Virus record (IMG/VR): IMGVR_UViG_3300044302_001819
Span: 1-23,477 of that record
Reading direction: 5' to 3' (one strand)
From: a virus
DNA: 23,477 bases
A model generated the notes under the pieces. The model had not been told where the DNA came from. It saw only the letters and a list, made by a program, of their open reading frames with translations, and did not search any database. Both the position numbers and the translations under genes were made by a program. Positions 13,184 to 20,693 of the stretch are shown one piece after another. How positions within the stretch are numbered: position 1 is the first letter of the stretch; each line of letters begins with the position of its first letter.

Positions 13184-13375
13184 ATGAGAGATGAAACCGC
13201 GATTTATCTCGTCTTGAAAAAGATTAGATCGCGCAAAGAAGAACTAAAAGAAGTGATAGCAACGGGTTTACCGAGCTTTGATGAATACATGAAAGCTGTT
13301 GGTGAACACAAAGCTTACACTATAATTGAACAGGAAGTACAAGACCTGCAGAAAGATGAGGAAGAAAATGACTGA
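13184..13375 (+). CDS. Small acidic helical hypothetical protein
   Basis: This 63-residue protein looks like a helical hairpin or coiled coil (LKKIRSRKEELKEVIATG, then a Glu/Asp-rich tail EVQDLQKDEEEND). The ribosome binding site is poor, with only an A/T-rich leader in front. Its stop overlaps the start of the GroES-like gene by eight bases and the Glu codons GAGGAAGA provide that gene's Shine-Dalgarno. I do not recognise a family. Confidence 0.75.
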   Translation: MRDETAIYLVLKKIRSRKEELKEVIATGLPSFDEYMKAVGEHKAYTIIEQEVQDLQKDEEEND

Positions 13376-13871
13376 AAAAGAGTTGCCTAAAAGACGATTT
13401 GCTTTAGAAGAAAAAGATTTAGCTGTAGAAGCTGATGAAAACAATCAGAAAGCTGAAGAAAAAGAAAACAGGTTTCTTAAAAAAATACAAGAAGACGCTA
13501 CAAAAGATATAAAGCATTTACCTACAGATAAAGTATTAGAACGTTTACCAGATCCAACTGGATGGAGAATATTAGTTCTTCCGTACAAAGGACAAGGTAA
13601 AACTAAAGGTGGTGTAATATTAGCAGATGAAACAATTGAAGAGAGAGGTTACACGACAGTAACAGGTTTAGTTTTAAAAGTTGGACCTGATGCTTATAAA
13701 GATGAAACGAGATATCCAAACGGACCTTGGTGTAAAAAAAATGACTGGATTATATTTGGTCGTTATGCCGGATCACGTTTTGGTATAGAAGGTGGTGAAG
13801 TGAGAATATTAAACGAGGACGAGATAATTGCTGTGGTAAAAGACCCAGAGGATATCTTGCAATATAAATAA
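13368..13871 (+). CDS. GroES-like co-chaperonin
   Basis: The 167-residue protein has a GroES/Cpn10-type domain from about residue 60 to the end: PTGWRILVLPY, a mobile-loop-like segment (GQGKTKGGVILADETIEERG), VTGLVLKVGPDAY, WIIFGRYAGSRFGIEGGEVRI and DEIIAVV. A charged N-terminal extension of about 60 residues precedes it. I chose the ATG at 13368 rather than the more upstream in-frame ATG at 13326, because GAGGAAGA lies directly before it and the upstream start would lie deep in the previous gene. By analogy with T4 gp31 it may work with host GroEL to fold capsid proteins, which fits its place just before the scaffold and capsid genes. Confidence 0.9.
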   Translation: MTEKELPKRRFALEEKDLAVEADENNQKAEEKENRFLKKIQEDATKDIKHLPTDKVLERLPDPTGWRILVLPYKGQGKTKGGVILADETIEERGYTTVTGLVLKVGPDAYKDETRYPNGPWCKKNDWIIFGRYAGSRFGIEGGEVRILNEDEIIAVVKDPEDILQYK

Positions 13872-17928: not shown

Positions 17929-17946
17929 GTGGGGCTTCGGCCCCAC
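17929..17946 (+). terminator. UUCG-loop hairpin after the decoration gene
   Basis: GTGGGGC (17929-17935) and GCCCCAC (17940-17946) pair perfectly over seven bases around TTCG, an exceptionally stable tetraloop closed by C-G. Only a weak TTCTT-containing stretch follows. It may be a terminator or processing-resistant hairpin. The stem equals the core of the hairpin at 16911. Confidence 0.75.
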
Positions 17947-18396: not shown

Positions 18397-19146
18397 ATGG
18401 CTTATTCAGGCACACAAACCTTTAATCTTTCGATTGAGGAAATAATAGAAGAGGCATACGAAAGGTGTCAATTAGAGACTCGTAGTGGTTATGATTTAAA
18501 AACTGCTAGAAGATCTATGAACTTAATGTTAGCAGAGTGGGCAAACCGTGGTTTAAATTTATGGACCATAACATATGCAACACAAACATTAACTGCTGGT
18601 ACAAATTATTATTCTATTGATCAAAAAGTAGTAGACATAGTAGATGCTGTTGTAACAACTACAACAGGCGCAACTTCTAATTTAGAAGGTGATAGTAATA
18701 CTACAGATGTTGCTATGAATAGAATTTCTAGAACTGAATATATAAATTTAAGCAAAAAAGAAAATTCATCTTCGGGTGATGCAAGACCTACACAATTTGC
18801 TTTAGTTCCAGGCACAGTTACAACTGGAAGTTCTTCTAGTAGTGGCAGACCAGAAAATGATATGACATTGTTTTTGTATCCTAGCCCAGATAAAGCTTAC
18901 ATATTTAAGTATTTTTATATCGCAAGAATAGAAGACGCAGGTAGTTATACAAACAATGCTGATGTACCTTTTTATTTTCTTCCTTGTTTGACGGCTGGAT
19001 TAGCTTACTATATAAGTTTAAAAAGAGCACCGATGTTAAGTGCAAACTTAAAAGCGGTGTATGACGAAGAATTTAAACGTGCTTCTGAAAACGATAGGGA
19101 AAGAGTTTCTTTTAGAGTTGAACCAGCACGGGCGTACACACCATAG
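18397..19146 (+). CDS. Head-tail connector / neck protein, P22 gp4-like
   Basis: The 249-residue protein starts with SIEEIIEEAYERCQLETRSG, then LKTARRSMNLMLAEWANRGLNLW, a helical pattern recalled from P22 gp4-like adaptors that stack on the portal ring. A beta-rich middle (ATQTLTAGTNYYSID) and a helical C-terminus (LPCLTAGLAYYISLKRAP) follow. It probably docks on the portal and helps to seal packaged DNA. Its TAG stop forms part of the shared ribosome-binding cassette of the Cys-rich micro-gene. Confidence 0.85.
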   Translation: MAYSGTQTFNLSIEEIIEEAYERCQLETRSGYDLKTARRSMNLMLAEWANRGLNLWTITYATQTLTAGTNYYSIDQKVVDIVDAVVTTTTGATSNLEGDSNTTDVAMNRISRTEYINLSKKENSSSGDARPTQFALVPGTVTTGSSSSSGRPENDMTLFLYPSPDKAYIFKYFYIARIEDAGSYTNNADVPFYFLPCLTAGLAYYISLKRAPMLSANLKAVYDEEFKRASENDRERVSFRVEPARAYTP

Positions 19147-19157
19147 GAGGTAATATG
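19144..19157 (+). promoter_or_regulatory. Shared stop/ribosome-binding-site/start cassette, copy 3
   Basis: TAGGAGGTAATATG is identical to the copies at 10053 and 10217 and again uses the upstream TAG stop as its first codon. It sets the start of the Cys-rich peptide and predicts strong translation. Confidence 0.9.
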
Positions 19158-19265
19158 CCAATATGTAAACATTGTGATCATGAATGTCATTGTAGTAATG
19201 GCGGTTCATGTTGCGGAGGACAGTGCCAATGTGGTAACTGTGAATGTAAAAAGGAGGAAGAATGA
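19155..19265 (+). CDS. Metallothionein-like Cys-rich micro-protein
   Basis: The 36-residue product contains ten cysteines and three histidines in the spacing C-x2-C-x3-C-x-C-x5-CC-x3-C-x-C-x2-C-x-C (C4 to C31), followed by an acidic/basic KKEEE tail. It has almost no hydrophobic residues that could form a core. This density of Cys in CxC and CxxC pairs is typical of metallothioneins, which bind several Zn or Cu ions through thiolate clusters. It is too dense for a single zinc finger. A perfect AGGAGGT precedes it and its stop overlaps the next ATG by four bases (ATGA), so both support a real, well-translated gene. Metal binding is predicted, not shown; a structural zinc-knuckle peptide is the alternative. 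Confidence 0.85.
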   Translation: MPICKHCDHECHCSNGGSCCGGQCQCGNCECKKEEE

Positions 19266-19495
19266 GTAATAAAAACTGGAATAACCAAACTGCTAACGCT
19301 AGTGGATCTACTGGTGGAGTAAAAAGTAATTGGAGTCATAGAGGTACTAATTCTATACCTACTGCTAAACCAAAAGAAAAAGAAAAAACTATTTCTATAG
19401 CAGAAGGTGAGATACACGGTACAGTTCAAGGTATGGGTGCAGCTACTAAAGGTGGTAAGTATCATTGGTCTAGTAAGAATAAAAGTAATTGGTAA
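19262..19495 (+). CDS. Small Asn/Trp/Lys-rich hypothetical protein
   Basis: The 77-residue protein has recurring Trp-containing short motifs (NKNWNNQ, KSNWSHRG, KYHWSSK, KSNW at the end) and a Lys/Glu-rich centre (AKPKEKEKTISIAEGEI). KGG appears near 64-66. It looks disordered and is coupled to the Cys-rich gene by a four-base overlap. I recognise no family; co-occurrence with the metallothionein-like gene could mean shared function, but this is inference only. Confidence 0.75.
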   Translation: MSNKNWNNQTANASGSTGGVKSNWSHRGTNSIPTAKPKEKEKTISIAEGEIHGTVQGMGAATKGGKYHWSSKNKSNW

Positions 19496-19500
19496 ACTAA

Positions 19501-19995
19501 ATGGCTTATGCAATAGGTAAACATGCTAAATTTATTTCTGACCGTAGTGGTATGGAATACCCATACACAGAAATGGTTGTGGAATGGAATGGTGCACGTG
19601 TTCACAAAAGTGAATTTGAACCTAAAACACCACAGGATAGACCTAACAAGCATTCGCCAGATGCAGAAGCTTTGCAATTTCCAAGACCAGCAAGAACAGA
19701 AAATGAAACAGAAAGATTGTTGCCTTTAAATCCGTTTAGATTTACAGCTTCTAGTACAACAGTAACAGTATTTGAACCTGCACATAAAAGATCTAGTAGT
19801 GATACAGTTAGATTTAGAACTGTGTCTGGTAATTTATTTGGTGCATCTAAATCAGAAATAGAAGCAGAAGCTGGTTTTAGTATAACAAAAACAGATGATG
19901 ACTTTTATACCTTTACTGTGTCAACAGCACCATCTATTACAGGAAATGGTGGAGGAGGACAAACGTCTTCTGGTCCAGCAACATTGAGTAACTAA
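19501..19995 (+). CDS. Structural protein with a cysteine-less zinc-ribbon-like N-terminus
   Basis: The 164-residue protein begins GKHAKFISDRSGMEYPYTEM, with VVEWNGARVHKSEFEPKTPQ next. In related phage proteins as I recall them, the same frame reads as a CxxC...CxxC zinc ribbon, of the form CDRCG...EWNG...C-x2-C-EPKHPQ. Here the four positions are S, S, H and E, so the metal site appears lost. The C-terminal half is beta-rich with Thr/Ser (FRFTASSTTVTVFEPAHKR). It lies between the two neck proteins and is probably a neck or tail component. Its stop overlaps the next start (TAATG). Confidence 0.75.
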   Translation: MAYAIGKHAKFISDRSGMEYPYTEMVVEWNGARVHKSEFEPKTPQDRPNKHSPDAEALQFPRPARTENETERLLPLNPFRFTASSTTVTVFEPAHKRSSSDTVRFRTVSGNLFGASKSEIEAEAGFSITKTDDDFYTFTVSTAPSITGNGGGGQTSSGPATLSN

Positions 19996-20693
19996 TGACT
20001 ACATACGCACAATTAACACAACAAATATTAGACTATACAGAAACAAGCACTGATGTATTAACGTCTACTATTACAAATGATTTTATAGAGCACACAGAAA
20101 ATAGAATATTAAAAGAAGCTGACTTGGATGCTTTTAAATCACATCAATCAGCTACTTTAACAACTAGTAATCCTTTTGTATCTTTACCTGGAGGTACATC
20201 ACCAGATCCAACATCACTAGCTACGATACGAACAATTCACATATGGCCTGCTTCAGGCACACCAACAAGAGATTTTTTAGAACATCGTGATCTTAGTTAC
20301 ATGAATGAATATTGGCCTGACAGAACTGCTACAGGCACACCAAGATATTGGTCATGGTGGGATCAAAACACAATTTATCTTGCTCCTACGCCGGATTCAG
20401 CGTATAACGTAGAATTAGGAATTACTAGATTACCTACAAGACTGTCTAGTAGTAATACAACCTCATGGTTGGGAGACAATGCCCCAATGGCGTTGCTTTA
20501 TGGATGTCTTGCAGAAGCCTTTAAGTTCTTAAAGGGACCAGCTGAAATGCTGCAATTATACGAACAATCTTATCAACGTGCTATGCAAGAGCTTATAGTT
20601 GAGCAAACTGGAAGGCACAGACGAGATGAATATTTGCATGGAGAGTTAAAATTCCCTATGCAATCTACAAAAACAAAAACTATAGGAGAATAA
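19995..20693 (+). CDS. Neck / tail adaptor protein
   Basis: The 232-residue protein opens with a helical domain (YAQLTQQILDYTETSTDVLT, ENRILKEADLD), then a beta region (FVSLPGGT, TIRTIHIWP), PRYWSWWDQNTIYLAPTPDS, and a helical C-terminus (AFKFLKGPAEMLQLYEQSY). This matches phage head-tail adaptor/neck proteins found beside P22 gp4-like connectors in marine podoviruses (recalled family, no search). It would form a ring under the connector. Start coupled to the previous stop. Confidence 0.85.
   Translation: MTTYAQLTQQILDYTETSTDVLTSTITNDFIEHTENRILKEADLDAFKSHQSATLTTSNPFVSLPGGTSPDPTSLATIRTIHIWPASGTPTRDFLEHRDLSYMNEYWPDRTATGTPRYWSWWDQNTIYLAPTPDSAYNVELGITRLPTRLSSSNTTSWLGDNAPMALLYGCLAEAFKFLKGPAEMLQLYEQSYQRAMQELIVEQTGRHRRDEYLHGELKFPMQSTKTKTIGE

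Follow-up and report, generated by a model that had tools for sequence, protein, structure and literature searches.

A conserved metallothionein-like micro-gene in the virion gene region of marine phages

Metallothioneins, small proteins in which about 20% or more of the residues are Cys, are known from cells. Bacterial members have about 50 to 80 residues; SmtA carries nine Cys and two His, and peptides of the SmtA/BmtA kind, in which a zinc-finger fold holds the cluster, fold only with metal. In the Neurospora crassa protein, seven Cys bind about six Cu(I). SmtA has been reported to bind up to four Zn (PMC10612145). Our search of an open-access full-text library returned no phage metallothionein. 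A 2022 survey of HTVC023P-type phages reported 41 new auxiliary genes (PMC9599517), and the words metallothionein and cysteine are absent from its main text, as they are from the main text of the paper on the isolation of phage Eyrgjafa (PMC8163748).

We analyzed a 23.5-kb virus record from IMG/VR, here called the window, which comes from an uncultured ocean phage. Its terminase is 58 to 68% and its capsid protein 73 to 76% identical to those of HTVC023P, HTVC027P, phage 023Pt_psg01, and DSL-LC04. The window phage is accordingly related to the HTVC023P-type pelagiphages, and its host may plausibly be SAR11-like. The region of interest contains the following features.

18397..19146, + strand: upstream neck adaptor of the SU10_adaptor family (Pfam PF24175, E = 4e-8; phrog_12985), the anchor of our census
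19145..19150, + strand: Shine-Dalgarno sequence AGGAGG of the micro-gene, overlapping the adaptor TAG stop (19144-19146) and lying 4 nt before the ATG
19155..19265, + strand: metallothionein-like Cys-rich micro-gene, long form, 36 residues with 10 Cys and 3 His, read as an ORF and kept by relatives selected through the adaptor
19251..19257, + strand: Shine-Dalgarno sequence AAGGAGG of the next gene, gA, within the codons of the KKEE tail of the micro-gene
19262..19495, + strand: gA, a 77-residue Asn/Trp-rich gene of unknown function, its start overlapping the micro-gene stop
19501..19995, + strand: gB, conserved (phrog_28581, function unknown), directly after the adaptor in most relatives without the micro-gene
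19995..20693, + strand: second SU10-type adaptor or virion structural protein (Pfam PF24175, E = 9e-24; phrog_2941 and phrog_10775)

The micro-gene product, MPICKHCDHECHCSNGGSCCGGQCQCGNCECKKEEE, has Cys at positions 4, 7, 11, 13, 19, 20, 24, 26, 29, and 31 and His at positions 6, 9, and 12. The preliminary description, which counted ten Cys and three His in 36 residues, arranged in CxC and CxxC pairs, is borne out by this reading, as are the perfect Shine-Dalgarno sequence and the coupling to the next gene, an ATGA overlap at 19262-19265. Cys makes up 28% of the peptide, and Phe, Trp, and Tyr are lacking. The other 25 window proteins have 26 Cys in 7,432 residues (0.35%), so that 10 of the 36 Cys in the window belong to this one peptide. 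Ten Cys in 28 residues was reached in none of 60 dinucleotide shuffles read in six frames; one shuffle gave nine, and Cys density alone is therefore rare, not impossible. Of 281 loci, a count that includes redundant contigs, 210 have GGAGG ahead of the start, and among 120 distinct homologues of the gene, 102 have AAGGAGG in the tail. Since the AAGGAGG of gA encodes the KKEE tail, these residues need not carry functional meaning. Most neck-type relatives have gA immediately after the micro-gene; it lies 140 to 330 nt off in some (loci L101, L104, L116, L120, and L178).

Two freshwater relatives (L082 and L086) have a CxxC motif at the N-terminus of gB (LCDYCGQRYPY and ICDRCGLTVPY). The gB of the window and its marine relatives reads ISDRSG there, with both Cys replaced by Ser, and a zinc site was possibly lost in the marine clade. 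In L046 and L302, an extra segment of about 0.2 kb, encoding a 62-residue protein in L046, separates the adaptor from the micro-gene; the adaptor-gB gap thus resembles a site where small genes insert. Elsewhere in the window, a GroES-like co-chaperonin domain occupies residues 77 to 172 of a 181-residue ORF (13326-13871) beside the capsid genes, and a GC-rich hairpin (GTGGGGCTTCGGCCCCAC) lies at 17929-17946 between two genes of the virion region that precede the adaptor.

Census loci were selected by similarity of the upstream adaptor alone, not of the peptide, and the following ORF was then inspected; the prevalence counts exclude loci found by a Cys pattern, since these had been selected for Cys. 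A Cys-rich micro-ORF followed the adaptor in 76 of 76, 75 of 75, and 28 of 32 loci with enough sequence in three adaptor-selected sets, the first two of which share some contigs. Counted as distinct adaptor proteins, all 91 in the first two sets precede an intact Cys-rich micro-ORF (55 long and 36 short forms, defined below), and 17 of 20 in the third set precede a micro-ORF. The peptides related to that of the window have 25 to 38 residues and 7 to 11 Cys. Unconserved Cys positions or a frame broken in relatives, outcomes that the preliminary description had named as telling against it, were looked for: the Cys are conserved and the frames are intact, with a GTG start in a few. The micro-gene is missing at the adaptor locus in L294 to L297 and in all eight named relatives fetched, where gB mostly follows the adaptor directly; seven of these eight, searched as whole genomes, have no copy anywhere, and cultured HTVC023P-type phages do without the gene.

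Cys codons vary only between TGT and TGC in all three forms, except at an optional long-form Cys that is Thr in some members. Values of dN/dS came to 0.145 for the long form, 0.177 for the short form, and 0.047 for the third, as crude pairwise means at high pS for classes whose patterns themselves demand most of the Cys; the non-Cys residues are also conserved. Between pairs of phages, pS of the micro-gene is at least that of the adaptor except in the closest pairs, and pN is far below pS. As pS is not reduced and pN is so much lower, the constraint acts on the protein. An RNA element as its cause was rejected, given the unreduced pS and the lack of any Rfam match in the window; a scan of the window for promoters and terminators stayed at the level of shuffled sequence and was uninformative. 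Conservation in the adaptor-selected relatives settles the status of 19155-19265, which by these sequence comparisons is a real, conserved protein gene under selection. That it might be a chance open frame finds some room in its mere 36 codons and in the one shuffle of 60 that came within one Cys of it; we give this idea practically no credence, as it is refuted by an ORF that keeps both its position and its open frame in every adaptor-selected relative of the clade and is under purifying selection.

The long form is described by CxxCxHxCHCx5C[C/T]x3CxCxxCxC, with 9 to 11 Cys, and the short form by CxxCx3CxCx3CxCxxCxC and close variants, with 7 to 9 Cys and with Cys, Arg, Pro, Ser, or Asn at the site of the long-form His9. 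A third form, KCxxCxCFCDxCECTxxxGCxKCxC, with 9 to 10 Cys, is found in a sister clade. The long and short forms almost always lack aromatic residues (102 of 106 distinct cases); the third form has two. Throughout the family the Cys stand in conserved CxC, CxxC, or CC motifs, as is characteristic of the metallothionein class. On a FastTree phylogeny built from 129 adaptors, at least eight changes on starred branches (13 by parsimony) are required for each of the two labels, long and short; the tree takes in some pattern-selected loci, which affects prevalence and not swapping. Two loci, L045 and L046, have identical adaptors and different forms. The form of the peptide is exchanged, yet some Cys-rich peptide is almost invariably retained. 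Such swapping, with one form or another always kept in the clade, is more in line with bulk thiolate capacity than with a single fixed fold. The differences in spacing and Cys number among the forms led us to reject a single zinc finger or ferredoxin.

The family profile, searched against all PDB sequences, retrieved seven chains with E-values up to 10. Every one of them is a metallothionein; the best has E = 0.13, and none is individually significant. Metallothioneins are thus the sole PDB relatives even at weak E-values, which agrees with the metallothionein-like character first proposed for the peptide. The only Pfam models matched by short members are PF00131 (E 0.003 to 0.007), PF02068, and PF12749, each with scores under its cut-off. 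No relative passes a metallothionein family cut-off in Pfam or NCBIfam. The window peptide has no match in either, bacterial metallothionein models included, and none in PHROG, where relatives give weak matches.

The fungal and animal metallothioneins of PF00131, such as N. crassa MT (1m0j) and the mammalian beta domain, are also very short, Cys-rich, and CxC-based. Alignments give them the run CxCx3CxCx2C(xC) in common with the short phage form, whose core, CxCx3CxCx2CxC, is spaced like the mammalian beta domain; the short members score 16.9 to 17.9 bits against PF00131, whose curated cut-off is 23 bits. The long phage form differs from them in its conserved His and CC pair, and the likeness is one of sequence that does not imply descent. 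Bacterial metallothioneins (SmtA/BmtA and those of Pseudomonas; PDB 6gv6 and 6gv7) have a prokaryotic setting, Cys and His ligands, and a similar number of Cys, and the Pseudomonas chains match the family profile at E 3 to 5. The phage peptides are shorter than these, and their gene sits in a virion operon, with no SmtB-type regulator seen beside it. Wheat Ec-1 and the plant PEC metallothioneins (PF02068) have CxCGxxCxC runs in common with the phage peptide, which is a single short domain; with two short phage members at E 0.04 to 0.065, below cut-off, and Ec-1 at E = 1.5 against the family profile, this is a likeness only. The pattern CxCxxCxCKKE recurs in CDCPPGTCTCKNCNCKKE, the C-terminal tail of a repressor-like Wohlfahrtiimonas protein that we take to be CopY-type, but there it is the tail of a larger regulator-like protein unrelated to the phage peptide. 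An AlphaFold model of the window peptide (pLDDT 68, pTM 0.38) had no secondary structure elements and is uninformative for a metal-folded peptide. Composition, Cys spacing, and conservation give good support to calling the window peptide metallothionein-like. In all the sequence features examined it resembles a metallothionein, yet it stands outside every catalogued metallothionein family, and convergence is no less likely than descent.

Viral contigs were searched more widely with a DNA pattern covering the C-terminal half, so that the matches are selected for Cys. At least 120 stretches were found, with 76 distinct peptides in the loci examined. Most lie at the neck locus and ten in other contexts: before a phrog_10775 tail/adaptor gene in L090 and L196 (in L196 as the tail of a 99-residue ORF), by the portal gene in L128, by the terminase gene in L175, and next to small membrane-protein-like genes in L108, L150, and L195. 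L175 has two separate Cys-rich micro-ORFs about 1 kb or less upstream of the terminase gene. In the remaining three, the myovirus-like contigs L096, L163, and L201, the match is a Cys-rich tail, CGCGNCDCKKE, at the end of a different 60-residue protein with CxxC pairs. The core DNA pattern gave seven matches in 84,980 prokaryote genomes, all of them six-frame noise or a repressor-like tail; a host origin was rejected on this ground, the narrow pattern leaving room for a diverged cellular source.

A DNA search of named phages led to three cultured SAR11 phages. Eyrgjafa (gp29) and Gjalp (gp42) encode a 54-residue Cys-rich peptide between the scaffold and capsid genes, and Mosig (00110) has a similar 45-residue peptide near baseplate genes, all annotated as hypothetical. 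HTVC041P has an intact 56-residue homologue of the Eyrgjafa gene at the same scaffold/capsid place (L338:1183-1353) that is absent from the deposited annotation, a case of the oversight by gene callers that had been predicted for so short a gene. The wider profile matched 5 of 15 whole records, namely these four and, more weakly, HTVC008M; the other 10, including T7, HTVC010P, HTVC011P, HTVC019P, and HTVC025P, gave no match. The Eyrgjafa, Gjalp, Mosig, and HTVC041P peptides begin with CxxCxHxCHC like the window peptide and are encoded among virion genes, and the three podoviruses among these phages have its CxCxxCxCK end as well. Their E-values run from 6e-14 to 3e-9, with Eyrgjafa and Mosig in the profile by construction; the HTVC041P peptide, which is outside it, scores E = 3e-9, though its close relative Eyrgjafa is inside. 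They differ from the window peptide in length (45 to 56 residues), in a longer spacer or C-terminal extension, and in belonging to other phage families and loci. Because peptides so short and Cys-rich are being compared, the likeness may be convergent. A null tblastn result for the peptide against named phages was discarded, as the low-complexity filter probably hides it. In the uncultured Fussvirus S30-C28 (L339:1145-1264), a shortened version with four Cys and the same C-terminal end, KEFWKIMSKRFNK, is perhaps a decaying copy. The first description of the micro-gene was correct and understated; its neck-operon setting holds for the window, with an SU10-type adaptor upstream and the Asn/Trp-rich gene downstream, but not everywhere, the gene standing elsewhere by scaffold/capsid, portal/terminase, or baseplate genes.

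We consider it probable that the micro-gene encodes a phage metallothionein-like metal-thiolate peptide that is produced from among the virion genes and buffers or salvages Zn or Cu in the infected cell. Conservation of the micro-ORF, low dN/dS, form swapping, the metallothionein matches in PDB and Pfam, the scarcity of aromatic residues, and the SAR11-phage peptides argue for this reading; the below-cut-off scores and the HTVC023P-type phages that lack the gene count against it. We infer that metal is bound, which metal this is, when the peptide is made, and how it is of benefit. The ten Cys, with His 6, 9, and 12, would form a metal-thiolate cluster with about three to four divalent ions (Zn or Cd) or with several Cu(I), and the short forms, with 7 to 9 Cys, would hold fewer. 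Its own strong ribosome site in a virion gene operon would allow the peptide to be made in quantity, presumably late, during virion assembly, as host proteins, metalloproteins among them, and ribosomes are dismantled, and it could then buffer, detoxify, or salvage Zn and Cu. One report describes pelagiphage-infected SAR11 cells as ribosome-deprived (PMC11066056); by our own reasoning, such ribosome loss could free Zn.

The main rival is a zinc-binding structural or packaged virion peptide, sited in the neck or head or inside the capsid, that stabilizes an interface or brings metal to the host infected next. It would explain why the gene stands amid virion genes, by adaptors here, by scaffold and capsid genes in Eyrgjafa, and near baseplate genes in Mosig, and why the L196 copy adjoins a phrog_10775 tail/adaptor gene. 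A fitted structural part, however, would hardly vary so in length, Cys number, and spacing or swap forms between near-identical adaptors, and relatives with the same neck genes lack the micro-gene, while its neighbors differ among phage families; we regard this explanation as unlikely, if still worth weighing. Much less probable is a thiol-redox or radical-scavenging peptide whose Cys serve as a reductant pool and bind metal incidentally. Metallothioneins can scavenge oxidants, and the Cys density here is high; one report also links PmtA of Pseudomonas aeruginosa to oxidative stress (PMC11237414). A plain thiol pool, though, needs neither regular CxC/CxxC pairs nor the conserved His of the long form. 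The ATGA coupling and the downstream Shine-Dalgarno sequence inside the last codons could also mark a leader ORF, whose translation mainly serves to adjust the next gene, through coupling or as a sensor of Cys or metal, while the peptide itself does little. Conserved non-Cys residues, low dN/dS, retention of the peptide where gA lies farther off, and the window's blank Rfam result make this very improbable.

The metallothionein-like reading bears on SAR11, the ocean's most abundant bacteria. A metal-handling peptide carried by nearly the whole of an ocean phage clade, and also by cultured SAR11 phages, would, if true, bring trace metals into infection biology, and the cultured phages with related genes make viral metal handling testable now. 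The micro-gene also exemplifies a class of conserved genes overlooked by gene callers and family databases. On the broadest view, which we hold to be a rather long shot, several unrelated families of SAR11 and ocean phages would carry a dedicated metallothionein that salvages Zn and Cu from the dismantled host and loads phage enzymes or virions, and phages would be carriers of trace metals between ocean cells.
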